NCBI GenBank assembly: GCA_015178975.1
Contig: WHVD01000007.1
Coordinates: 1,054,001-1,118,000 of the forward strand
Origin: Hysterangium stoloniferum
Lineage: Eukaryota > Basidiomycota > Agaricomycetes > Hysterangiales > Hysterangiaceae
DNA length: 64,000 nt
Direction: 5' to 3'
Shown here piece after piece: positions 1,800-60,697 of this stretch (position 1 is its first letter; each line of letters begins with the position of its first letter). The notes below the pieces were generated by a model. That model was given only the letters and a program-made list of their open reading frames with translations. It searched no databases and was not told the DNA's origin. A program made the translations under genes and the position numbers.

Positions 1800-3838
1800 A
1801 TGTCAACTTCAAACGAAACGACTCTGAGCGGCCACGATATCGGACGGGCTGAAGGCCTCCTACAAGAGGTTGAGTGGTTAAGATGCGTCTCCCCAGCTAC
1901 ATTGAGCTCAGAAGAACGGGAGGAGATCATTGACGCGGGGATAAGGGAAAGATTGCGGGGAAAGCTTCGAGAGCGATGGAGCTGTGTAGAACATGGGGAC
2001 GGTGTGTGTTATCGAGTTCCCGAAGACGATGAGCATATATCACTGTCTGAAGACGATGTGGAAGTTTGGGTTGAGGAATGGGTGCGCAAAATGAGATTGC
2101 CTTTCATGTACACAGTTGAAAAACTGGACGCTTTCAGTGGCTAGGGGAGACAACTTGTCATGATCCACCGACGATTATTAATATGCGTGGTAGATCCACC
2201 AACGTCACATCCAACCTCGGCCCACATGACAGTCATGACGTGGACTGGGGAGCGGTCTCACTGTATGAAAGCTCATCGACATGTTCAAGTATTACTATTG
2301 AGCCGGGGTATTACTGTAGAGTCGGTTTGGAAAGGGTTGGGAGGAAAGTGCTTTACAAGGCAAAGACAGTTGCACTGATGGTAAAGTTGATGATATACGA
2401 TCGAATAGTGTGGGGAGGCGACAAGGCCTGTAATAAGTTCCTACGCAAGCATCTCACTCTGCCAAGACTCGGAATAGTAATTCAAGAGACCATTGATTTA
2501 ATGAGGTGGGGAGGCCATCATTCAATAAACTCAAAATACTCACGTCTTGTTAGACCCACTTACCCGCGTCGAATTCGAGAACAGGCGTCGGTGGTCTTAA
2601 AGGGGTTCAGGTTAAGGGGTATACAGCGGAGGAACGAAGATCGCAGTGCCAAGCTTATGGAATATTTGGGTTCGGCCTTCTACTGGTGTCCCGGTGCAGA
2701 TGTTGATCAGACACCAACCGCAATGACGTCATCGCTTTATAATGCTATCATGAAATCACCCTTACACACCAACGCGGATGAGGTTGCGTCGAAATTTATT
2801 CTACAAATCGCACGATACTTGTCGTGCCATCAATATCCCTCCTTCTTTGGCCAACTTATGGATATCGTGGAAAACATCTACGAAGTGCGTCAATTGTGTG
2901 TAGAGGAGCTCACTGCGATCAGAGGTTCCATTGAATTCTGGTTAAAACCGTGCGTCGCGACATTATACCATGTCATTCTGCCCACGAAAACCACAACAGA
3001 CAAACTTACCCATACCGACCTGCCTTGTACGACACTCCCGTACGGCTTCTCGTGTGTTGCATGGACCAAGATACCTGGTTTCGAGATATTGCTGGAGATG
3101 TATTGCAGGTTATAATGGACGACACAAAACTCCAGATAGCGTCATTCACACTTCATATCGATGAGGACATGTCATTTTCACTTTGGAATAGGACCAGTGC
3201 CCTGGAAACATTCTTCAACGACAGCACGCTTTGCACGGATCATATAAACCAGCTTAATGTGGTTTCATCGCTCATTGACCCCCTCCTAAGGTATGTTTCA
3301 AATGTTTTACCTTCCAGCATGATCTCATATCCACCCATTCAAATATTGTACCAGTCTGATTCTGACACACCCGAGTCCAAGTTACTGGCTCTTCTGGTCA
3401 GGGGTGGGACTAATTGAGGTTACACTGAAGCTGATAGCTGCATCTTCCGACATCGACTCCGCGTGTACCACAGTGCACAGCCTGAATATAATCTCCATTT
3501 TCGCTCGTTTTCTTCCCCATTGTGGCTCAATGCGTGGCTCAATGCGTGGCTCAATGCGTGGCTCAATGCGTGGCTCAATGCGTGGCTCAATGCGTGGCTC
3601 AATGCGTGGCTCAATGCGTGGCTCAATGCGTGGCGCAATGCGTGGCTCAATCAACCATCATATTACCCGTATTTCCTTTGAGCTATTAAACCTCGTGGCT
3701 CGTTCCCTCCTTCGCGTCATCGCTACACCTTTTACCGGTGTGTCGGTAACTTCTAATTTGAACTCCACATCAGCGTTAGAGGATCATTGGCGACCTTCTG
3801 ATGCTGTTGTTGCATCCATGTGGCACGATATATCATAA
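1800..3838 (+). CDS. Family A gene copy 1 (near-complete, unknown function)
   Basis: Proposed exons are 1800-2081, 2138-2505, 2554-2949 and 3000-3290, with a last exon from about 3,402 to the TAA at 3,838. Introns of 56, 48 and 50 nt have GT..AG ends, and phases agree through exon 4, giving about 445 codons without a stop. The final junction does not keep frame as I read it; without splicing there the protein would end at 3,417. The exon 1 end is acidic; exon 2 has LTLPRLGIVIQETIDLM; exon 4 has DTWFRDIAGDVL. The leucine-rich helices in exons 4-5 resemble ARM/HEAT-type repeats only loosely. No signal peptide or membrane segment is seen. The last exon carries an in-frame MRGS tandem expansion absent from other copies. 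Function unknown. Confidence 0.6.
3523..3650 (+). repeat. 12-bp minisatellite coding (MRGS)n
   Basis: The unit TGGCTCAATGCG is repeated about 10.7 times, almost without change (one unit has GGCGC). It lies inside the last exon of A copy 1 and keeps frame, turning the single MRGS of other copies into a run of about ten tetrapeptides. The ORFs called on the opposite strand here are repeat artefacts. Confidence 0.95.
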
Positions 3839-7776: not shown

Positions 7777-9050
7777 ATGTCGCCTTCCAACGAGATAATT
7801 CCGAGCAGGCAGGATATCCCATCCCTCATACAAGAGGTTGAATGGCTCCAAGCCTGGGTTTCCCCGGCTGTATTGAGATTGGAACGGCAAGAGATCGATG
7901 GCACGGGAACGAAGGAAAGATCCGGGTTGAAGCTTCGAGAGAAATGTAGCTGTCTCGAACATGGGCTCTGTGCATGCTACCGAGAACACCATGACGACCA
8001 GCACTTACCATTGTCTGAAGAAGCAGCGGAAGTGTGTACGGAGGACTGGTTGCGAAAAACGATAGATACTTTGTATGGACACTGTTCACAGACCGGATGG
8101 TTTCCAGCGCCAAGGTGACAGAAATGACCATGACCCACCGAATAATATTCAGATATGAGGGATATCCACCAATTACACATCCAAATTCAGCCCATATCGG
8201 AGGCGTGAAGTAGACTGGGGAGTCGTCTCATCGCCGGTTAGTTCATCTTCAAGTGTTGAAATTAGCCCCGGGTATTACTGTGGAGTCGGTTTGGAAAGGG
8301 TTAGGATGAAAGTACTTTACAGCGCCAGGAAAACTTCACTAATGGCATATGGAGACAGGGTTTCCCACGAAAACCACAACAGACAAACTTACCCATACCG
8401 ACCTGCCTTGTACGACACTCCCGTACGGCTTTTCGTGTGTTGCATGGACCAAGATACCTGGTTTCGAGATATTTCTGGAGATGTATTGCAGGTTATAATG
8501 GACGACACAAAACTCCAGATAGCGTCATTCACACTTCATATCGATGAGGACATGTCATTTTCACTTTGGAATAGGACCAGTGCCCTGGAAACATTCTTCG
8601 ACGACAGTACGCTTTGCACGGATCATATTAACCAGCTTAATGTGGTTTCATCGCTCATTGACCCCCTCCTAAGGTATGTTTCAAATGTTTTACCTTCCAG
8701 CATGATCTCATATCCACCCATTCAAATATCGTACCAGTCTGATTCTGACACACCCGAGTCCAAGTGACTGGCTCTTCCGGTCAGGGGCGGGGGACTAATT
8801 GAGGTTACACTGAAGCTGATAGCTGCATCTTCCGACATCGACTCCGCGTGTACCACAGTGCACAGCCTGAATATAATCTCCATTTTCGCTCGTCTTCTTC
8901 CCCATTGTGACGCAATGCGTGGCTCAACCCGGATTTGCTTTGAGCTATTAAACCTCGTGGCTCATTCCCTCCTTGCGTCATCGCCACACCTTTTACCGGT
9001 ATGTCGGTCACTTCTAATTCGAACTGGGTCCGTGGGCGCTGCTTAGCCAC
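7777..9050 (+). pseudogene. Family A copy 2, chimeric
   Basis: Exon 1 (from ATG 7,777, PSLIQEVEWLQAWVSPA) and the beginning of exon 2 are diverged. At about 8,363 the text jumps, without exon 3, into intron 3/exon 4 sequence that is about 98% identical by eye to copy 1 (8,367-8,905 against 2,982-3,520). The exon 4 frame carries DTWFRDISGDVLQVI and ends at a stop at 8,767. The last exon is cut off near 9,020 by unrelated GC-rich repeats. A deletion or gene-conversion chimera; not expected to make a normal protein. Confidence 0.65.
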
Positions 9051-10704: not shown

Positions 10705-11334
10705 CGAATGTGTGTCACCCCGAAAGCTTTGTTATCGCTAATTTAGACCAGTTGCCATCAAGTGGTCATGGAATCTGGCTTCCTCGAACTTCTCCTGTAT
10801 CGCTAAGTATCAGTTATACACTATATGGGTCTCAAACGTGCTTTGTGGTTCTCGTTTTCCCTTCCTTGCAATATTCGCGATGGTCGTTTTTCTCACATCG
10901 GATCCCATGGGAGCGAGGCGCTCCATCATCAGGTCAAGGTTTCGAATGGAGAGAAATACTTGATTGAATCGGCCCAACACCCTTTCAAAGGCCTTTCCTT
11001 TTATTCCAGATCTTGTGCTTCATGGTAGCCAATCAGGAGATTAAACATAGATTTTAAATATTAGGTGAATCGGACCGAGATAACTATCGGCATGGATTAG
11101 GGAGTTACGGGTGGTGGTTGCTGCTCTTCAATGACTTGCTTCCTGCTATCTCAACTAACGGATACGCTGCATTCTTTGAGAGCTCCGAGTCGTATTCTAT
11201 TTGAAGTGATTCTCGTTGATAAATTGGATGTGATTCTAGCCACCACTAACGCCCACCAATATATGCAACGTATGTATAGAATCAACGAGAAACTGCGAAG
11301 CACACAAAATAAAAGTGACTACATGCGCTCTTGA
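10705..11334 (+). pseudogene. Family B copy facing A copy 3, 5' end missing
   Basis: It starts inside the B second exon (GTGTGTCACCCCGAAAGC) and runs through the middle block (frame reading HRIPWERGAP) to the C-terminus ILFEVILVDKLDVILATTNA..RINEKLRSTQNKSDYMRS at 11,334. The parts lie in different frames, consistent with introns, frame damage or both. The B first exon is replaced by the CpG-free block. It is convergent with the intact A gene 122 bp away. Function unknown. Confidence 0.5.
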
Positions 11335-11455
11335 ATGCCCTCAAACTATGTAGCTTTACATAAATTAGAAATATTGCCAAAGTGGAGTTAACTGAAGACT
11401 AATAGTAGTATCCTCCCTCCTGGGTGGATAATGGGTCGGTGTTACCAAGGAGAAA

Positions 11456-13432
11456 TTATGATATATTGTGCGTAATGGATGGAACAAGAGCATCGGGAGA
11501 CCAACCATCATTCTCCAACACGGATCGGGAGCTTGAATGAGATGCCACGCACATACCGGTGAAAGGTGTGGCGATGACACAAAGGAAGGAATACGACGCG
11601 AGGGAAAATTGTTCAACGTGGGCACCGAAGTATTGACCGTTGATTGAGTTATGAATTGGGTTACAATGTGAAAGAAGACGAGCGAGAATGTCGATCATAT
11701 TGAGGCTGCGCACTATGGTACACGCGGATTCGATGTCGGGAGATGCAGCTATCAGCTTCAGAGTAACCTCGATTATTTTCCTGCCTGAAAAGAGGAGAGA
11801 AAAGGGGTCACTTGTGTGTGTCATACTCAGACTGGTAGGATATTTGAATGGGCGGATATGAGATTATGCTTGAAGGTCAAACATTGTCAACATACCTTAG
11901 GAGGGGTTCAATGAGCGAAGAAACCAAATTCAGCCGGTTGATATGATCCGTGCGAAGCGTGCTATGGTCGAAGAAGGTTTCTAGGTCGCAGATACGGTGA
12001 AAAAGTGAAAAAGACATGTTCTCATCGATATGAAGTGTCAATGTTGCTATATGGAGGCTTGCGTCGTCTAAAATCAGCTTCAATGCATCTCCAGCAACAT
12101 TTCGAAACCAGGCATCTTGGTGGATGCAACACACGAGAAGGATTATAGGAGATTCGAACAAGGAAATTCTGTGTGAGTAATTTTGTCTGTTCTGGTTTTG
12201 GTGGGCAGGATGAAATAATGTGATGTCGCGACGCACGGTTTTAACCAGAATTCAATGTAAACCCTGATCGCAGCGAGCTTCACTGCAGACAGTTGACGCA
12301 CGTGGGAGATGTGTTCCACGATATCCCCAAGGCGACTGGGGAGGAAATTGAGAGCAGGAAAAGATGATGAATGATATTCGGCGATTTGTACAATTAATGT
12401 GGACGCAGCCTCATCCACGTTGGTGTGTAGTGGTGATCTGATGACAGCCTTGTAAAGGGAAGACGTAATTGAAGTTGATCGCGGATCTACATCTGACCAT
12501 CGAGCGCCGGGACACCAGAGGAAGGCCCAAGCCAAATATATCATAAGCTTGGCAGTGTGAACTCCGTTTCTCCGCTGTATACCACTTGAATAACATATGT
12601 GTAAGGACGCCCACTCCGCTAAGACCACCCACGCCTGTTGTCCAATTCGAAGGGGATAGGTGGGGCTAGAAAGACGGGAGTATGTTGAGTAATCAATGGT
12701 TGACGCGGTTGTATCCCTACTTCATCAAATCGATGGTCTCTTGAATTACCATTCCCAGTCTTGGCAGAGTGAGATACTTCTGTAGACACTTGTCAAAGGC
12801 CTTGTTCCCTTCATATCCACGGGCTATTCCCCTGTATATCATCAACTTTACCATCAGCGAAGCTCTCTGTGCGCTGTGAAGCACGCCCATCCCAATCCTG
12901 TCCATTCCAACACCTGGGTAATACCCGGGGCTAATATCAAGAATTGAAGACGAGCTATCAGCCCGTGAAATCACTCCCCAGTCGATCTTCTGATGATTGC
13001 AATATGGGTTCATGTTTGATGTTGTGTTGGTGGATCTACTTCGCGTTTTAATAATAGTCGGTGGGTCACGACAATGTGCTTCTCCTAGGCACTGAAAGCG
13101 TCCAGTTTGTCAACAATGTACACGAAAAGCTAATGTATTTTGCGCACCCATTCCTCAATCCAAACTTTTACGTCTTCTTCAGACAGTGGTATATGCTGGT
13201 CGTCTTCGGGACCTCGATCACACACACCGTCCCTATGTTCGATACAGCTCCATCGCTCTCGAAGCTTTACCCGGAATCTTTCCCTTCTCACCGCGTCAAC
13301 TCTCTTCTCCCGTTCTTCTGCGCTCCATGCAGCTGGGGAGACAAAGGGTTGTAGCCACTGAACTTCTTGTAGGAGGCTTTCAGCCCGTACGAGATCGTTG
13401 CTGCTCAGAGTCCTCTCGTTTGAAGTCGACAT
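11456..13432 (-). CDS. Family A gene copy 3, intact five-exon gene, unknown function
   Basis: Exons (minus strand) are 13432-13148, 13091-12721, 12665-12237, 12186-11896 and 11780-11456. Introns are 56, 55, 50 and 115 nt, all GT..AG; phases are 0, 2, 2, 2. Total coding length is 1,701 nt, or 566 residues plus stop, with no internal stop. Exon 1 starts MSTSNERTLSS and ends in an acidic stretch (PEDDQHIPLSEEDVKVW). Exon 2 has LTLPRLGMVIQETIDLM; exon 3 has CPGARWSD and SPLHTNVDEAAS; exon 4 has DAWFRNVAGDAL; exon 5 has CVIATPFTGMCVAS. Leucine-rich helices near residues 440-510 (SLIEPLLR, IIEVTLKLIA, DILARLLSH) suggest an ARM-like fold, a weak inference. No signal peptide, membrane segment or catalytic motif is recognised. 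The conserved leader precedes the ATG. It is the best reference copy for the family. Confidence 0.8.
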
Positions 13433-13680
13433 TGGTGGGTAGCAGGCAGTTGTGATACCGGAAGGGGATGCTGCGCTTTTAAGTTACAGTTATCAAGGGA
13501 ATAAATTTCAAGGTATCGCATTGTGGCGGTGCTTTGTACAGGATACCCAGCTATTCATCCCTTCCTTTTACACAACCTCAAACCTCAACCTCCTTCATTC
13601 ATACATGCTCCAGGATTGTCTCATGTTCTCTCACTATGGTATAAACCAATTCCTTGGTCTTCAACAGATTGTCTACGGTC
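13433..13680 (-). promoter_or_regulatory. 5' flank of A copy 3
   Basis: The complement carries the family leader (TTAAAAGC, CCCCTTCC, ACCCACCAATG) at 13,483-13,433 and then the GCATTGTGGCGGTGC segment shared with the other A flanks. It ends abruptly at about 13,682, where a B fragment is joined. Confidence 0.5.
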
Positions 13681-18227: not shown

Positions 18228-19533
18228 ATGTCGACTTCAAACGAGAGGACTCTGAGCAGCAACGATGTCGTACGGGCTGAAAGCCTCCTACAAGAAGTTC
18301 AGTGGCTACAACCCTTGGTCTCCCCAGCTGCATTGAGCGCAGAAGAATGGGAGGAGATATTTGATGCGGTGAGAAGGGAAAGATTCCGGGAAAAGCTTCG
18401 AGACCGATGGAGCTGTATTGAACATGGGCACAGTGTGTGTTATCGAGGTCCTGAAGACGACGAGCATATACCACTGTCTGAAGAAGATCTGGAAGTTTGG
18501 GTTGAGGAATGGGTGCACAAAATTCAACAGCCTTTCATGTACACTGTTGACAAACTGGACGCTTTTAGTGCCTAAGAGAGCCACATTGTCAAGACCCACC
18601 GACTATTATTAAAATGCGAGGTAGATCCACTAACACGACATCGAACATGAGTCCATGTCGCAGTCATAATAACATCGACTGGGGAGTGGTTTCACTGGCT
18701 GATAGCTCGTCTTCAAGTGTTGAAATTAGCCCCGGGTATTACCTAGGAGTTGGCATGGACAGGATTGGGATGGGCATGCTTCACAGTACACAGAGAGCTT
18801 CTCTGATGGCAAAGTTGATGATATACAAGAGAATAGCCCGTGGATATGGATGCAACAAGGCCTTTAACAAGTGTCTACAGAAGTATCTCACTCTGCCAAG
18901 ACTGGGAATGGTGATTCAAGAGACCATCAATTTGATGAAGTAGGGATACAACCGCGTCAACCATTGATTACTCAACATACTCACGTCTTTCTAGACCCAC
19001 CTATCCCCTTCGAATTAGACAACAGGCGTGGGTGGTCTTATGGGAGTGGATGTACTTACACCAGATATGTTATTCAAGTGTTAAACAGCGGAGAAACAGA
19101 GCTCACACTGCCAAGCTTATGACAGGTTTGGCTTGGGCCTTCCTCTGGTGTCACGGCACTCAATGGTCAGATGTAGATCGGCGGTCAACTTCAATTACGT
19201 CTTCCCTGTACAAGGCTGTCATCAGATCACCACTACACACCAACGTGGATGAGACTGCATCCACATTCATTGTACAAATCGCTGAATATCATTCATCATC
19301 TTTTCCTTCTCCAGGTTTCCTCGTCAGTCACCTTGGGTATATCGTGGAAGACATCTCCCACGTGCGTCAACGGTCTGCAGTGGAGTTCGCTGCGATCAGA
19401 GTTTACATTGAATTCTGGTTAAAACCGTGCGTCGCAACATCACATTTTTGCATCCTGCCCACCAAACCAGAACAGACAAAATTACTCACACCGAATTTCC
19501 TCGGTTGAATCACCTATAAGGATTCTCATGTGG
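18228..19533 (+). pseudogene. Family A copy 6, exons 1-3 intact, cut in exon 4
   Basis: Exon 1 is 18228-18512 (95 codons), exon 2 18569-18939, exon 3 18995-19426, and exon 4 begins at 19,476. Introns are 56, 55 and 49 nt with correct phases. The reading is open and close to copy 3 (MSTSNERTLSSNDVVRAE; ITSSLYKAVIRSPLHTN). At about 19,533 exon 4 is broken by the 70-bp satellite, so about 380 residues remain. Possibly still transcribed, but it lacks the C-terminal helical part. Confidence 0.65.
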
Positions 19534-20186: not shown

Positions 20187-20672
20187 ATGGGAATTAGGGG
20201 ATTAGGGGAATTGGGGGAATTGGGGGATTAGGGGGATTAGGGGGATTGGGAGGATTGGGGGGATTAGGGGGATTAGGGGGATTAGGGGGATTGGGGGGAT
20301 TGGGGGGATTAGGGGGATTGGGGGGATTAGGGGGATTAGGGGGATTAGGGGGATTAGGGAGATTAGGGAGATTGGGGGGATTAGGGGGATTAGGGGGATT
20401 GGGGGGATTGGGGGGATTGGGGGGATTGAGGGCATTGGGGGGATTGGGGGGATTGGGAGGATTGGGGGGATTGGGGGGATTGGGAGGATTGGGGGGATTG
20501 GGGGGATTGGGGGATTAGGAGGATTAGGAGGATTAGGAGGATCAGGAGGATTAGGAGGATTAGGGAGATTAGGGGGATTGGGAGGATTGGGGAGATTGGG
20601 GAGATTGGGGGGATTGGGAGGATTGGGAGGATTGGAAGGATTGGGAGGATTGGGGGGATTGGGAGAATTAGA
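20187..20672. repeat. G-rich 9-bp minisatellite
   Basis: Tandem GGGGGATTA/GGGGGATTG units, with GGAGGATTA variants at the right end. The unbroken frames on both strands (poly LGG / NPP / IPP readings) come from the 9-bp period and are not genes. The + strand has runs of four or more G at short spacing, a strong G-quadruplex pattern. Confidence 0.95.
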
Positions 20673-20770
20673 GGTGTCTACACTGAGGTGATTCTCATGA
20701 TTCCTAAGGTAAATCAAATACAGCTTATCTGGAGATCTTTAAGCAAATACATAGAGTAAAGCTTTATGGG
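20673..20770. repeat. Spacer repeating the 20,096-20,190 segment
   Basis: The segment GTCTACACTGAGGTGATTCT ... TCTGGAGAT ... AAGCAAATACATA ... AGTAAAGC occurs at about 20,096-20,190 and again here. The satellite end plus G-rich array is therefore itself a tandem unit of about 580 bp. Confidence 0.8.
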
Positions 20771-26669: not shown

Positions 26670-28623
26670 ATGTCAACTTCAAACGAAACGACTCTGAGCA
26701 GCGACGATGTCGAACAGGCTGAAATCCTCCTACAAGAGGTTGAGTGGCTACAACCCTTGGTTTCCCCAGCTGCAATGAGCTCAGTAGAACGGGAGGAGTT
26801 AGTTGATGCGGCGATAAGGGAAAGATTCCGGGTAAGGCTTCGAGAGCGATGGAGCTGTATCGAACATGAACACGGTGTGTGTTATCGAGTTCCCGAAGAC
26901 GACCAGCATATACCACTGTCTGCAGAAGATGTGGAGGTTTGGGCTGAGAAATGGGTGCGCAAAATGGGATAGCCTTTAATGCATACTGTTGACAAACTGG
27001 ACGCTTTCAGTGGCTAGGAGAGACAAATTGTCATGATCCACCGATTATTATTAAAATGCGAGGTAGATCCACCACCGCCACATCCAACCTCAGTCCGCAT
27101 TATAGTCATGACGTGGACTGGGGAGTGGGTTCACTGTATGAGAGCTCATCGACATTTTCAAGTATTAAAATTGAGCCGGGGTATTGCTGTGCAGTCGTGA
27201 TGGAAAGCGTTGGGAAGACTGTGCATTACAGTGCAAAGACAGCTGCACTGATGGCAAAGTTGATGCTATACAAGCGAATGGTGTATGCAAACGACAGGAC
27301 CGTTAACAGGTTCTTACGCAAGCCTCTCACTCTGCCAAGACTCGGAATCATAATTCAAGAGACCATTGACTTAATGAGGTGGGTATATCACAGCGCCGAT
27401 CATTGCATACACTCAACATACTCACGTCTATCTAGATCCACTTACCCGCGTCGAATTCAAAAACAGGCGTGGGTGGTCACAATTAATCTCTGTGATTCAA
27501 CTCATATGACGTGGAGCAACCGAGGTGACACTGAGAAGCTTATGGTGCGTTTGAGTGGGGCCTTCTCCCAGTGTACCGGCGCTCGATGGTCAGATAGAGA
27601 TCTGCCACCAACTGAATTTACATCATCCCTTTACAATGCTATAATCAAATCACCGCTACACACCAACGTGGATGAGGTGGCGTCGGCATTCATTCTCCAG
27701 ATCGCCCGATATTTATCATCCTTTTGTAAACGTACCTTCCTCCTCGTCGACCTTGAGTATATCGTGGAAACCATTTGCCACGTGCGGAAACTGTCTGTAG
27801 AGGAGGTCACTGCCATCAGGGGTTGCATTGAATTCTGGGTACAACCGTGCGTCCCGACATCACATCATTTCATCCTGCCCACCAAAACTAGAACAGACAG
27901 AATTACCCACACCGACATTCCTTGCATGTCCTATAACTGGTCTCGTGTCTTGCATCCACGAAGATGATCGGTTTCAAGATCTTGCTGGAGATGTATTGAA
28001 GGTTATAATGGATGACACAAACCACCATATAGCGTCCTTGACTCTTATGATGGATGAGGACACAGCATATTCATTGTTGGATGGTATGTTGGCTCTGAAC
28101 ACCTTCTTTGACGACAGCACGCTTCGCACGCATCATATCAAACAACTAAGTGTGGTCCCTCGGTTAATTGAGCCACTCCTATGGTATGTTGAGAGTGTTT
28201 TACCTGCCAGCATCACCTAATATTCCCCCTTGAAAATACCATACCAGTCTGATTCTGACACACCCGAGCCCAAATTACGGTTTCATCTCGTCAGGCGAGG
28301 AAATAATTGAGTTTACTCTGAAGCTGATAGCTGCATCTTCCGACATCGAATCCGCGTGTACCGCAATGCGCAGGCTCAATATAATCCCCATTATCCCTCG
28401 TCTTATCCCCCATTGTGACACAATGCGTGGCTCGCTCAACAATAAATTCCTCGTTTCCCAGCTTGAAGCATTAACCCTCGCGGCTCAGTCCTTCCTTTGT
28501 GTCATCGCCACACCTTTCACCGGTGTTTGCGCAACATCTAATTCAAACACCAGATCAGTGTTGGAGGGCCATGGCTGGTCTCCCGATGCTCTTGCTCCAT
28601 CCATTCCGTCCGATATGTCATAA
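26670..28623 (+). pseudogene. Family A copy 8, full length with a frame break in exon 4
   Basis: Exons 26670-26954, 27011-27378 and 27436-27846 are open with correct phases (introns 56, 57 and 50 nt). Exon 4 (27,897-28,180; DDRFQDLAGDVLKVI, TNHHIASLTLMMDED) requires a one-base frame change near its start relative to copy 3. The last exon ends SIPSDMS at 28,623. The conserved leader is present. The break is small, so sequencing error or an alternative junction cannot be excluded. Unknown function. Confidence 0.6.
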
Positions 28624-31720: not shown

Positions 31721-31849
31721 CAAACTATTGTAGCTTTACATAAATTAGCAATATTTCCGAAAGGCGACTCAAGTATAGAGTAATAGTACTATCCTTCCTC
31801 CTGGTTCGGATAATGTATCGCTGTTATCCGAGAGAAATCAAGATATATT

Positions 31850-33823
31850 GTGTGGAATGGATGGCGCAAGCGCATCGGCAGGCCAACCATGATACTCTAA
31901 CACAGATGTGCAGTTCAAATTAAATGTTACCAAAATTCCGGTGAAGGTGTGGCGATGACGGAAAGGAGGGAATGACCCATGAGGTGTAATCTCTCAGAGC
32001 GGACACGGTGGAATTGATCGTTGATGGAGCCATGCATTGTGTCACAATGTGGGAGAAGACGATCGAGAATTGCGATTATATCGAGGTTGCGCACTGTTGT
32101 ACACGCGGATTCGATGTCAGAAGATCCAGCTATCAGCTTCAGAGTGAGGTCAAGTAGATATTCGCCTGAATGGAGGAGCCAAACATTTGGACGCTTGTGT
32201 GTCAGAATAAGACTAGTAGGATGTTTGAATGGGCAGATATGAGATGATGCTGGAAGGTAAAGCATTGTCAACATACCGTAAGAGGGGCTCAATGAAGGAA
32301 GAAACCACGTTCAGCTGGTTGATATGATCCGTGCGGAGCATGCTGTCGTCTAAGAAGGTTTTCATGGCCCTTATATCACACCACAGTGAATACAGTGTGT
32401 CCTCATCGATATGAAGAGTCAAGGACGCTATAAGGAGTTGGTGTTATCCACTAGAATCTTCAATACATCTCCAGCGATATCTCGAAACCAGGCATCTTCG
32501 TGCGTGCAACACACCAGAAGCTGTATAGGAGATCCATACAAGGAACATCGATGTGAGTAATTTTGTCTGTTGTGGTTTTGGTGGGCCAGATGAAACGATG
32601 TGATGTCGCGACGCACGGTTGTACCCAGAATTCAATGCAACGTCTAATCGCACTGAGCTCCTCTACAGACAGTTGACACACGTGGAAAGTTTGTTCCACG
32701 ATATGCCCAAGCTCGCCGAGGAGGAAGGTACGTTTACAAAAGGATGATAAATATCCGGCGATTTGTAGAATGAATGCCGACGTAACCTCATTCAGGTTGG
32801 TGTGTAGCGGTGATTTGATGACGGCATTGTTAAGCGATGACGGCATTGTAAAGCGATGACGGCATTGTAAAGCGATGACAGCATTGCAGTTGATGGCAGA
32901 TCTCTATCTTGCCATCCAGCGCCGGGACACCAGAGGAAGGCCGAACCCAAAGATGCCATAAGCTTGGCAGTGTGACCTTCGTTCCTCCGCTGTATAACAC
33001 TTGAATGATAGAGCCTCTGTAAGACCACCCACGCCTGATGTCGAATTCGAAGGGGATAGGTGGTTCTAGAAAGACGTGAGTATGTTCAGCAGTGTAATCA
33101 ATGATTGACGCTGTTGTATCCCTACTTCATCAAATCGATAGTCTCTTGAATTACCATTCCCAGTCTTGGCAGAGTGAGATACTTCTTTAAACACTTGTTA
33201 ACGGCCTTGTTGCGTTCATATCCATGGGCTATTCCCTCGTATATCGTCAGTTTTACTATGAGCGAACCCCTCTGTGCGCTGTAAAGCACTTTCATCCCAA
33301 TCCTGTCCATTCCAACTCCTAGGTAATACCCGGGGCTAATTTCAACACGTGAAGACGAGCTACCAGCCAGTGAAACCACTCCCCAGTCCATGTTATGATG
33401 ACTGCGATATGGCTCATGTTCGATGTCGTGTTGGTGGATCTACCTTGCGTTTTAATAATAGTCGGTGGGTCACGACAATGTGCTTCTCCTAGGCAGTGAA
33501 AGCGCCCAGTTTGTCAACAGTGTACATGAAAGGCTATTGTATTTTGCGCACCCATCCCTCAACCCAAAATTCCACATCTTCTTCAGACAGTGGGATATGC
33601 TCGTCGTCTTCGGGACCTCGATAACACACACCATGCCCATCTTCGATACAGTTCCATCGGACTCGAAGCTTTACCCGGAATCTTTCCCTTCTCACCGCGT
33701 CAACTCTCTCTTCCCGTTCTTCTGCGCTCCATGCAGCTGGGGAGACCAAGGGTTGTAGCCATTCAACTTCTTGTAGGAGGCTTCCCGCACGACATCATTG
33801 CTGCTCAGAGTCGTCTCGTTTGA
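31850..33823 (-). pseudogene. Family A copy 10, full length but damaged
   Basis: All five exons can be followed: exon 1 33,823-33,540 (a short deletion near its start breaks the frame), exon 2 to about 33,125, exon 3 33,060-32,617, exon 4 to about 32,275, exon 5 to about 31,850. Exon 3 contains a local 19-bp tandem expansion at 32,812-32,890 that also disturbs the frame. Exon 4 (DAWFRDIAGDVLKIL) and exon 5 (KLIAGSSDIESACTTV) are well preserved. Confidence 0.65.
32812..32890 (-). repeat. 19-bp tandem expansion in A exon 3
   Basis: The unit GATGACGGCATTGTAAAGC is present about four times in a row, whereas other copies have one. The length is not a multiple of three overall, so it shifts the exon 3 frame of copy 10. 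Confidence 0.9.
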
Positions 33824-33829
33824 AGTTGA

Positions 33830-34645
33830 CATTGGTGGTTGTCAGGTGGTTATAATACCGGAAGGGGATGCTGGGCCTTTAAGTTACAGTTATCAAGGGA
33901 ATAAATTTCAAGGAATCGCATTGTGGCGGTGCTTTATACAGAATACCCAGCGATTCATCCCTTCTTTTCCACAACCTCAAGCCTAATCTCCTTCATTAAT
34001 ACATGCTCCAGGATTGTCTCAAGTTCTCTCACTATGGTATACACCAATTCCTTTGTCTTCATCAGCTTGTCTATGGCAGAGAGCAGATATGGCAGTTTTA
34101 AATAGTTCGATGAACCTTCACCGCATACTGTGGCAACTTCCGACTTCTGGAGCGCTAGAGCATTGGGAATTGATCTCTTACATTAGTTGAGAAGTGACAT
34201 GTCAATTGATAGAATATGTAAATGCAGTGGATGCTATCCATGACAGCGCTTCTCAGGTACAGCCCCGCCACTCCGGCTATATTTAGCGGAAGCCGAATTC
34301 TTTCAGAATTCCAACGAGCATCCCATTTTAATAATTCTTTACTTGGGCCAATTGGCGTAGAAAGTAAATATGCCTGTTTGTGGCGAGTCCGTCAGGTTTT
34401 CATTGACAAATTGTGTAATCTAAATTCAGTCAGAATTAAGTACACGCTAGAATTAGTATTACCTGGTCCTTGTGAGCGGAGTAATGGTGAACCCCTCATA
34501 CGATTGAATTGTATCATGGTTTTGCTCCTCATTTCCCGTCCTGGACCTGCAAGTTTCATGGTGAAAACAGCATATGTAATATCCTGCTCGTGTGACTTAT
34601 CGTGCTATTTTATATTTCCATCTCCCTATTCTTGTTAATATATAG
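33830..34645 (-). repeat. 5' flank of A copy 10
   Basis: Mirror image of 17,390-18,227, including the leader (33,835-33,885 reversed) and the distal GGTCCTTGTGAG and GTCCTGGACCTGCAAG segments. The match fades at about 34,645. The 138-codon plus ORF at 34,222-34,638 is not conserved in the other flanks. Confidence 0.5.
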
Positions 34646-36017: not shown

Positions 36018-37388
36018 ATGCATGTTCCCCTTGTCTCATTCTCTTTACTGTGCTTTATCACCCAGGTCACCGCGCAATTCGAATTTCCATCTCCAGCTAT
36101 CGAATATGACGCACCACCTCTCGAAACCGGCGTCTTAGGAGTAACAGCATTTTTCACCCTGACAACGCTCATACAATTGATCATTGTCTCGACCTATCTA
36201 TTCCGAGGTCGTTCACCCCATATCCTACCGGCTGTAGTAGTACTATTAGGAATGCTCTTTATGATCGTTTCGAATGTACTGTTTATATTGCAGCTTCTTA
36301 CCTTTTATGTCTCTTTTGATCCGTTGTTGCCGGATAAGTTGAATCCACGATTCCATGCAGGTCAGTACAACTTGATGCAAAATATTAGGGTGCATACTTA
36401 TCAGTTGGCAGGAGAGGCGTTATTCTATGATTGGGCCGATCCGCTCATCTTTGTAGCCGTCGCACTCATTGTTCGGGACAGATATCGAACTCATACACAG
36501 AAAGCAAACTCAGATAAAACACTCACAAAACCACTACCTATAGAACTATTTATGATCCCATTTTATGTCTTCGCAGCATTCATAGTAATATTTTCCTCTT
36601 CATTCACTCGCGTATTCCAGACGTTACCGACCTTCGATGCTGGCCTTTCTGAGGCCCAGTACGAGGCCCAACTGGCCAAGTATGAGGCCAGACTAAATAT
36701 CGGAAATGACTTGGTCTATACGTCGGACGCGATATCTTTTTTTGCGACGCTTTTGTTAGTCCCACTTGTGGCATTGGTCAGATCGAGAATTGGAAGGGAC
36801 GAGGTGAGTGTGTTGTCTTTAGGATTTGGTATTTGATTGGTCTTATACGTGGATTTGGGTTAGCTTATGAACTGGACCTCGTTCGCAATAATCCCTTCCT
36901 TATGCTTCCGCATCATACCCTCAATCGTCATTACTGTCATGGACACCAACACCAAATTAGACACATTTACCAGTGAACAACTTGACCTCGCCAACATCAT
37001 CACCAACCTCGTATTTTACTTCATCGTGTTCTGCTTTTTTTGCCATATTTTCGTGTGGACGCGATTGTGGTATGGCCCTGGCGAACAATCCAACAACTCG
37101 AACAATTCGTATGGATACATAGGGGGACAGATGCCTCTGGCACAATTTCCGGGTCAGTGGGGGTATCCTCAAGGGGGTACGTACATGTATGTACAGACCA
37201 CGCCTGGCATGCAGTACCCTCCTGCACAGGGGCAGTTCCAAGGTGTACATGGACAGGTTCAGCAGTATCCTTTACCACAGGATAATGGACAGAATCCAAG
37301 TTCTGGACAGGTCACGCAGCATCCGTTACCGCAGACGCAACAGGTTTCTGGACCAGAGAAAGCGCTGCCTGCACAGCCTACCCAGTGA
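36018..37388 (+). CDS. Seven-segment membrane protein with Q/P/G-rich tail
   Basis: Two exons, 36018-36803 and 36864-37388, are joined by a 60-nt GTGAGT..TTAG intron in phase 0, giving 436 residues. Residues 1-20 look like a signal peptide (MHVPLVSFSLLCFITQVTAQ). About seven hydrophobic segments follow, near residues 39-62, 71-98, 139-152, 177-196, 234-254, 267-288 and 307-327. The last 100 residues are rich in Q, P and G with repeated QYPLPQ/QHPLPQ motifs and are probably cytosolic. The layout is receptor-like, but I see no motif that names a GPCR family; an orphan 7TM or other fungal membrane protein is equally possible. The gene is not part of the A/B repeats and looks intact. Confidence 0.8.
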
Positions 37389-47390: not shown

Positions 47391-47562
47391 TTAAATAATT
47401 TGGAAATATTGCCAAAAGGCGAGTGAAGAACAGAGTAATAGTACTATCCTTCCTCTTGGTTTGGATAGTATATCGGGTTTATCCAAGAGAAATTATGCGT
47501 GGGGAATGGATGGAACAAGCGCATCGGCAGGCCAGTCATGGTCCTCCAAACTGATCTGGATT

Positions 47563-49430
47563 TTAATTAGTTGTTACGCACACACGGGTGAAAGGTGTGG
47601 CGATAACACAAAGGAAGGAATGAGCGGCAAGGGTTAATCGTTCAAGCTCAGCACCGCGGTATTGATCATTGGTTGAGCCGCCCATTGCGTCCCAATGTAG
47701 AAGAAGACGAGCGATAATGGGGATGATATTGAGGCTGAGCACTGTGGTACATGCGGATTCGACGTCGGAAGAGGCAGCTAACAGCTTCAGAGTAACCTCA
47801 ATTAGTTCCCTGCCTGACCAGAGGAGCCAGAAATTCAGATTTGTGTGTGTCTGCATCAGACTGGGAGGATATTTAAATAGTCCGATATGAGAGTATGCTT
47901 TAAAGTAAAACGTTGTCAACATACCTTAGGAGGGGCTCAATGAGCGAGGCTACCGCATTCACCTGGTTGATATGATCCGTGGGAAGCGTGCTGTCATCGA
48001 AAAGGGTTTTCAGGTCGCAGATGTAACACCATATTGAATGGGACGTGACCTCATCCATTTGAAGCGTCAAAGACGCTATGTTGAGATTTGTGTCCTCCAC
48101 TACAACATTAAATACATCTCCAGCAAAATCTCGAAGGCAGGCATCTTGGTGCATGCAGCACACGAGAAGCTGTACATACAGCGAATGTCGGCGTGGATAA
48201 TTCTGTCTGTTGTGGTTTTGGTGAGCAGGATGAAATGGTGTGATCTCGCGACGCACGGTTGTACCCAGAATTCAATGCAACCTCTAATTGCAGTCAGCTC
48301 CTCTACAGACAGTTGACGCACGTGGCAGATGTTTTCTACAATATTCCGAAGGTTGCCGAGGAGGACGGTCGGCTGAGAAAAGGATGATAAATATCCGGCG
48401 ATTTGTAGAATGAATGTCTATGCAACCTGATCCACGTTGGTGTGTAGCGGTGATTTCATAACAGCATTGTAAAGCGATGACGTCATTGTCGTCGATGCCT
48501 GATCTACATCTGACGATCGAACGCCAGGACACCAGTAGAAGGCCGAACCCAAATTTGCCATAAGCTTGGCAGTGTGTCCTCCGTTCCCCCGCTGTATGAC
48601 ACTTGAATACCCGAGCCGCTCCAGGACCACCCACGCCTGTTCTCGAATTTGACGGGGGTAAACGGGTCTAGAAATACGTAAGTATTTTACGTGTATTCAA
48701 TGATTGGCTCTGAAGTATTCCCACCTCAATAAGTCAATGGTCTCTTGAATTACTATTCCGAGTCTTGGCAGAGTGATATGTTTGTGTATGAATTTGTTGA
48801 AGGCCCTGTTCGCTCCATATGCCATTCTCTTGTATATCATTAACTTTGCCATCAGTGAAGCTTTATTTGCGTTGAAAAGCACACTCATCCCAACCCTTTC
48901 CAAACCGACTCCACAATAATCCGGGGCTAATTTCAACACTTGAAGATGTCGATGAGCCCCCATGGGGTGAGATCACTCCCCAGTCCACGTCATGACTGTA
49001 ATATGGACTGAGGTTGGATGTAGCTTTGGTAAATCTACATCGCATGGTAATAACAGTCGGTGGATCATGACAATTTGTCTCTCCTAGTCCCTGAAAGCGT
49101 CCAGTTTGTCAACAGTAGGCATTAAAGGGTATTCAATTTGCGCACCCATGCCTTAGCCCAAACTTCCACTTCTTCTGCAGACAGTCGTATATGCTGGTCG
49201 TCTTCGGGAACTCGAAAACACACACCCTGTCTATGTTCGATACAATTCCATCGGTCTCGAAGCTTTACCCGGAATCGTTCCCTTATCGCCGCGTCAATTC
49301 TCTCATCCCGTCCTCCTGAGCTCAATTCAGTTGGGGCGACCAAAGGTTGTAGACACTCTACCTCGTATAGGAGGCTTTCAGCCCGTACGCTATCGTGGCT
49401 GCTCAGAGTCGTTTCGTTTGAAGTGGACAT
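47563..49430 (-). pseudogene. Family A copy 13, full length with frame damage
   Basis: Exon 1 is 49430-49146 (95 codons, MSTSNETTLSSHDSVRAES), followed by a 55-nt intron and exon 2 from 49,090. A short deletion in exon 2 after VEISPG shifts the frame. Exon 3 (48,640-48,266), exon 4 (48,200-47,930; DACLRDFAGDVFNVV) and exon 5 (47,870-47,563; RELIEVTLKLLAASSDVES) remain recognisable, and the last acceptor (GGCAG) is in phase as in copy 3. Probably inactive, but recently so. Confidence 0.65.
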
Positions 49431-59880: not shown

Positions 59881-59901
59881 GAACACTTTCCATTCTTCTG
59901 T

Positions 59902-60697
59902 TCTACGAGACTTTACGTTCTACGAGACTTTACGTTCTACGAGACTTTACATTCTACGAGACTTTACGTTCTACGAGACTCTACGTTCTACGAGACTCTA
60001 CGTTCTACGAGACTCTACGTTCTACGAGACTCTACGTTCTACGAGACTCTACGTTCTACGAGACTCTACGTTCTACGAGACTCTACGTTCTACGAGACTC
60101 TACGTTCTACGAGACTCTACGTTCTACGAGACTCTACGTTCTACGAGACTCTACGTTCTACGAGACTCTACGTTCTACGAGACTCTACGTTCTACGAGAC
60201 TCTACGTTCTACGAGACTCTACGTTCTACGAGACTCTACGTTCTACGAGACTCTACGTTCTACGAGACTCTACGTTCTACGAGACTCTACGTTCTACGAG
60301 ACTCTACGTTCTACGAGACTCTACGTTCTACGAGACTCTACGTTCTACGAGACTCTACGTTCTACGAGACTCTACGTTCTACGAGACTCTACGTTCTACG
60401 AGACTCTACGTTCTACGAGACTCTACGTTCTACGAGACTCTACGTTCTACGAGACTCTACGTTCTACGAGACTCTACGTTCTACGAGACTCTACGTTCTA
60501 CGAGACTCTACGTTCTACGAGACTCTACGTTCTACGAGACTCTACGTTCTACGAGACTCTACGTTCTACGAGACTCTACGTTCTACGAGACTCTACGTTC
60601 TACGAGACTCTACGTTCTACGAGACTCTACGTTCTACGAGACTCTACGTTCTACGAGACTCTACGTTCTACGAGACTCTACGTTCTACGAGACTCTT
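59902..60697. repeat. 17-bp satellite, about 46 copies
   Basis: The unit GAGACTCTACGTTCTAC is repeated nearly without change for about 790 bp; only the first four or five units differ (CTTTACG in place of CTCTACG). Each unit keeps two CG sites, so the array has not suffered the CpG decay of its surroundings and is either young or homogenised. Confidence 0.97.

Follow-up and report, generated by a model that had tools for sequence, protein, structure and literature searches.

The closest described systems come from three fungal settings. The het-d / het-e non-self recognition family of Podospora is described as having 10 members with a common WD-repeat domain (PMC1805685). The wtf killer meiotic drivers of Schizosaccharomyces are reported to have five or six exons, to include pseudogenes, to undergo nonallelic gene conversion and internal repeat-length change, and to evolve fast (PMC6526906). 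In Pseudocercospora fijiensis, histone H3 is carried by a hAT element and is reported to occur in hundreds of RIP-mutated copies (PMC6710886).

The gene considered here, copy 3, lies on the minus strand at positions 11456-13432 of a 64-kb window, the whole stretch of DNA that was analysed (G000:C522:1054001-1118000), in an assembly of 111 Mb and 554 contigs. We favour, with moderate confidence, the reading that copy 3, which looks intact, belongs to a very large coding family subject to birth and death, in which gene conversion and the duplication of segments spread the copies. Provided that intact copies are expressed, the family would be one of several hundred coding copies without an assigned domain, and would offer a natural test of how gene conversion and segmental duplication create protein variety in a fungus.

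Gene model of copy 3 and its relatives in the window

Copy 3 has a five-exon frame on the minus strand. Rerunning the splice model of the initial annotation, with introns of 56, 55, 50 and 115 nt, reproduced its 566 residues, and the strand, the frame and introns 1-3 stand as proposed there. Intron 4 had to be revised to 64 nt (11832-11895, GTATGT..CTACCAG), giving a protein of 583 aa. The shorter intron is preferred because it fits the frame and because its place and length (61-64 nt) are kept family-wide. Its donor reads GTATGT or GTACGT in 17/17 rows of the diverged-family alignment and its terminal AG is present in 16/17 (the exception being L034); among 21 close copies the donor GT is found in 20 (exception L018) and the AG in all. 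In the frame of exon 5, the stretch first taken for intron 4 is conserved in the manner of coding sequence, with a dN/dS of 0.62 and 11 stops in 504 codons. The 115-nt version was ruled out, as the coding-type signal runs throughout it and its alternative acceptor, GGCAG, is unconserved. Arrays of this kind readily invite error: they may be taken for transposons, or their genes may be given a wrong splice site, which intron 4 illustrates.

Read in the direction of the gene, exon 1 (13148-13432) has 95 codons, with the start codon at 13430-13432 and a conserved RERWSC..E....C stretch. The W-S-C...C part of this stretch may resemble a short cysteine/histidine motif of other agaricomycete proteins. 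Intron 1 (13092-13147, 56 nt, GTGCGC..TTTCAG) is followed by exon 2 (12721-13091), which contains LTLPRLGMVIQETIDLM, and intron 2 (12666-12720, 55 nt, GTAGGG..TTCTAG) by exon 3 (12237-12665), which contains SPLHTN. Intron 3 (12187-12236, 50 nt, GTGCGT..AACAG) leads to exon 4 (11896-12186), and beyond the revised intron 4 lies exon 5 (11456-11831), with TPFTG and the stop codon at 11456-11458. The GT..AG pair is kept in 14/17, 17/17, 14/17 and 16/17 rows for introns 1 to 4, respectively. Around the gene, a block common to the close copies (10710-13678, minus strand, ~91-94% identity) breaks off at both sides in the window copy.

The window holds 21 segments that match the gene, five of them full length including copy 3. 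Copy 1 (1800-3838, plus strand) is open throughout: under the revised model it has no internal stops and encodes 606 aa, and its identity to copy 3 is 55%. Exon 5 of copy 1 carries a 12-nt unit (SMRG) tandemly repeated about 10 times, and the frame stays open across it. Copy 3 had been put forward as the one intact member among about a dozen damaged relatives, a contrast that was drawn too sharply because copy 1 is also open under the corrected model. The frame is broken in the full-length relatives at 26670-28623 (plus strand), 31842-33832 (minus) and 47499-49430 (minus), and a partial relative comprising exons 1-3 (18228-19532, plus) has 90.5% DNA identity.

Segments 2981-3542 and 8364-8927 are 97.5% identical over 564 nt while neighbouring parts are about 72% alike, a likeness such as might be left after recent gene conversion or partial duplication. 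Elsewhere in the window, a very regular tandem array occupies 59900-60696, with self-matches that step by 17 nt, and a low-complexity repeat at 20202-20738 is open on both strands, so that the long ORFs there are probably spurious. A membrane-protein-like ORF lies amid the family arrays at 36018-36836; its match to HisKA_7TM is weak (E 0.03, below the cut-off).

Family size, arrangement and ends of the shared blocks

Copies were counted over the whole assembly by pattern search with up to 3 mismatches and reversed-pattern controls. The exon 1 start pattern was found in 230 places, the pattern for the SPLHTN stretch of exon 3 in 485 and that for the TPFTG stretch of exon 5 in 253; each reversed control gave 0. 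The SPLHTN matches divide evenly between the strands (245 / 240) and occupy at least 22 contigs among the 100 listed of the 485. In 77 hand-picked matches of those 100, mismatches within the SPLHTN stretch comprised 67 synonymous, 16 nonsynonymous and 1 stop, counts that are indicative only. A protein search placed matches on at least 13 contigs, and in a DNA search, in which 40 of 1309 first-look candidates were scored, all 51 matches listed were on C522, C8, C106 and C201. The recent expansion may have been local, since motif matches are on many more contigs than DNA matches.

Two further observations concern other parts of the assembly. Matches to STE3-type receptors cluster on C553, where a stretch of about 10 kb contains four gene-like groups of them, which suggests that the genome is that of a basidiomycete. 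A mating-type receptor region near the gene was considered and rejected, as these matches are on C553 and not on C522. A fungal 5.8S rRNA probe matched six places at 80-94% identity, on C516, C15, C90, C246 and C477, which suggests divergent rDNA copies.

Copies of the family occur in arrays. On C547 they stand about 3.4 and 2.9 kb apart on the same strand, and each of the three loci that were followed out to 10 kb (C547, C114, C524) had further same-strand copies a few kb off. Two 24-kb regions of C522 align with each other over about 10 kb and carry copies in both orientations, and one of the two contains two segments of about 2 kb repeated at a spacing of 13.2-13.5 kb. When 20 close copies were compared together with 3 kb of flank, identity of about 87-96% continued beyond the gene on both sides, for at least a few hundred bases and, in several pairs, as far as the retrieved 8 kb reached. 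The PHI statistic was 0.302 against 0.413 in permuted data, with 0/1000 permutations as low; informative sites that lie near each other are more compatible than distant ones, and short tracts are thus exchanged between copies. The pattern observed is one that duplication, both segmental and tandem, would leave in combination with gene conversion.

A possible, though rather unlikely, alternative is that a transposable element with unrecognised ends, for example a Helitron-like element, either encodes the gene as its own product or has captured it as cargo. The dispersal of the SPLHTN stretch over both strands and many contigs fits a mobile element, as do 0.8-1 kb of downstream non-coding sequence common to copies on C524, C28, C114 and C547 (~73-77%). 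Helitron-like elements are not known to make inverted repeats or target duplications, and tandem copies of them can occur. Against this alternative, there is no dominant single 5' or 3' end among 2269 and 1383 pairwise alignment ends, respectively; the largest cluster (487 of the 2269) falls within about 25 nt upstream of the start codon. The shared blocks are longer than a single gene and contain several copies, which lie in both orientations. No inverted repeat was found joining both ends of a full relative, and inspection by eye of copy 3 revealed no target-site duplication at 10710/13678. Constant ends marked by inverted repeats, LTRs or target-site duplications were thus absent from the copies compared, the target sites being those of copy 3. 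Copy 3, seven family ORFs and 10 of the 109 other ORFs in the window gave no match to a transposase, integrase or reverse transcriptase.

Two candidate sets of ends were rejected. Inverted repeats around copy 3, which could have passed for transposon ends, look like parts of other family copies in opposite orientation. The ends that seemed fixed at -757 and +2602 mark where the reference copy itself breaks off, similarity continuing past them in other copies.

Constraint on the reading frame in diverged and close copies

For deep divergence we aligned 15 copies: copy 3, the four other full-length copies of the window and ten loci on eight contigs (C179, C524, C149, C28, C388, C114, C162 and C547). 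The ten loci were drawn from the top protein matches, and the sample leans towards intact copies; at the DNA level the diverged rows are 68-81% identical to copy 3. In the predicted frames, dN/dS pooled over pairs of copies was 0.48, 0.53, 0.60, 0.70 and 0.73 for exons 1 to 5, the last taken over gene positions 1648-1977. Stops in the predicted frames of exons 1 to 4 numbered 6/1406, 2/1759, 3/1935 and 1/1426 codons, and 24/1577 in exon 5, where the natural stop codon is included; the other five frames of exons 1-4 had 35-149 stops each. As expected, antisense frames that share third positions also gave low deep dN/dS (0.52-0.64 in exons 1-3), and the frame is therefore fixed by the stops only. 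An alternative gene inside exon 3 was excluded by at least 72 stops in each of its other five frames.

As judged from these comparisons, the five-exon frame has been kept by purifying selection across deep divergence, and the diverged copies combine frame-specific purifying selection with conserved splice sites. In the close copies the coding signal comprises stop depletion and constraint on exon 1 only. The proposal of an expanded coding family that was once under selection is well supported by the deep dN/dS, the stop depletion and the motif counts, and the range of 0.48-0.73 in the diverged copies speaks against a neutral dN/dS in all copies.

The close-copy set comprises 21 copies including copy 3, with a mean pairwise difference of about 8%. 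Seven are open from start to stop; L016, which lacks the first 51 nt in the aligned block, is an eighth open copy, and in the remaining 13/21 the frame is broken. Overall dN/dS among them is close to 1 (0.97), with shifted-frame controls at 0.87 and 0.93. The close-copy value is thus not below those of the controls and gives no sign of recent purifying selection acting on the protein as a whole. By exon, pairwise dN/dS was 0.46 in exon 1 and 1.66 in exon 3, and a codon model on a fixed tree departed from omega=1 in both (2dlnL=21 and 2dlnL=25, respectively). The codon model gave likelihoods only, and the direction of the departures, low in exon 1 and high in exon 3, was judged from pairwise dN/dS. 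Recombination among copies weakens such a tree-based test, and since the copies recombine, we relied on a tree-free count of variants.

In that count, 19 of 877 distinct variants make a stop, against 37.7 expected (P=0.0005). Exon 3 has 181 nonsynonymous variants against 153.6 expected (P=0.001, uncorrected for five exons) and 3 stops against 13.0, and exons 1, 2, 4 and 5 show no departure from neutrality, the constraint on exon 1 appearing as a ratio of 0.76 (P=0.11). Private variants account for 14 of the 19 stops, and taken by themselves they show a weaker deficit (14 against 23.9 expected, P about 0.02) than the shared variants (5 against 13.7). Such a difference is what would be seen if only source copies were under selection, and it speaks for the transposable-element alternative. 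In exon 3 the private variants include 1 stop against 8.4 expected. An occurrence-weighted stop count (13 against 68) was discarded in favour of distinct variants, as it counted shared variants many times and overstated the deficit. RIP was likewise rejected, the close copies having no strong C-to-T bias. In this recent subfamily, then, fewer frames are lost than would be expected by chance, and amino-acid change keeps pace with or outruns silent change, above all in exon 3.

An unlikely explanation is that this is an ordinary host gene family in decay, in which the apparent diversification of exon 3 would be a by-product of relaxed selection and recombination. The broken frames of 13/21 close copies, the truncated start of L016 and an overall dN/dS like that of the shifted-frame controls would fit such a family. 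The stops, however, are still depleted, including among the private variants of exon 3, and nonsynonymous change in exon 3 is above the neutral count. On our preferred reading of a coding family in birth and death, the family would expand and contract through duplication, both tandem and segmental, accompanied by ectopic gene conversion; many copies would die, and the surviving ones would encode an intracellular protein, helical for the most part, that would be under pressure to diversify in its exon 3 part.

Protein features and comparison with known systems

No Pfam model matched copy 3, seven window ORFs or seven family members over the cut-off. No PDB sequence matched at E<=10, PHROGs gave no convincing match (best E 0.014), and two short peptide patterns yielded 49 stretches in viral contigs, none confirmed, and no confirmed relative in prokaryote genomes. 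There was thus no relative in viral sequence, among the viral contigs and PHROGs searched, that would mark an endogenous viral gene. In a search of open-licence papers, none of the listed titles and abstract openings indicated a described family with these properties. The initial annotation had called the family unrecognised, which holds in the sense of no convincing match in these collections; that is the sole meaning we give to "undescribed". Searches with the translation gave no confident match to a known transposon or host family in Pfam, PDB sequences or PHROGs.

An ARM/HEAT fold, which had been suggested for this protein, is not supported. The family recalls ARM/HEAT proteins in that the predicted model of exon 3 has six consecutive helices, with low confidence (mean pLDDT 55.5), and in the closest match in kind of copy 3, to HAT_PRP39_C, which lies below threshold (E 0.053, 14 bits against a cut-off of 33). 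It differs from them in that no ARM/HEAT Pfam model matched copy 3 at E<=10, or the seven window ORFs and seven family members at E<=5, and no PDB sequence matched. Foldseek returned 134 matches for the exon 3 model at E<=10, the top ones being globins, and 0 at E<=0.001. A model of a piece spanning exons 2-3 was also helical and of low confidence (mean pLDDT 40.4). The N terminus is polar, and no clear membrane helix was seen in copies 3 and 1 by simple 19-residue hydropathy, the top values being 1.59 (copy 3, borderline) and 1.45 (copy 1).

The likeliest role, offered as a tentative guess, may be recognition of a variable partner, whether self or non-self, a parasite or a mobile element; the fold and domain searches of family proteins gave it no support.

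The wtf proteins have membrane helices, and wtf copy numbers are far below several hundred. That the family is a selfish one of spore killers or meiotic drivers acting like the fission-yeast wtf genes is improbable, even though five exons, the exon 5 tandem repeat of copy 1, sequence exchange, many broken copies and a frame kept amid fast amino-acid change would all suit it, since inspection by eye of copies 3 and 1 revealed no evident second start near exon 2 (the first methionine of that exon lies about 27 residues in for copy 3 and is absent in copy 1), no 19-residue stretch is clearly membrane-spanning, and copies are far more numerous here. The likeness to wtf genes extends to exon number, broken copies, sequence exchange, an internal repeat and fast change (PMC6526906).

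Our preferred reading, a large coding family in birth and death, also meets a partial parallel in histone H3 of P. fijiensis, likewise a coding sequence reported in hundreds of copies, of which many or most are dead (PMC6710886). Unlike that case, no carrier ends were found here, and the close copies show no strong C-to-T excess. The het-d / het-e family is likewise a fungal multi-gene family with pseudogenes whose members exchange sequence, and its variable part is under positive diversifying selection (PMC1805685), to which the exon 3 excess may be compared; it differs from the present family, which has hundreds of copies and no recognisable domain. It is conceivable, if rather speculative, that the family represents a class of recognition or selfish gene not previously known in fungi, one that is domainless, probably helical and present in several hundred copies, with copy-to-copy exchange and positive selection on one exon. 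Such a class might, just as tentatively, be comparable in logic, without sequence likeness, to the NLR/HET or wtf repertoires.
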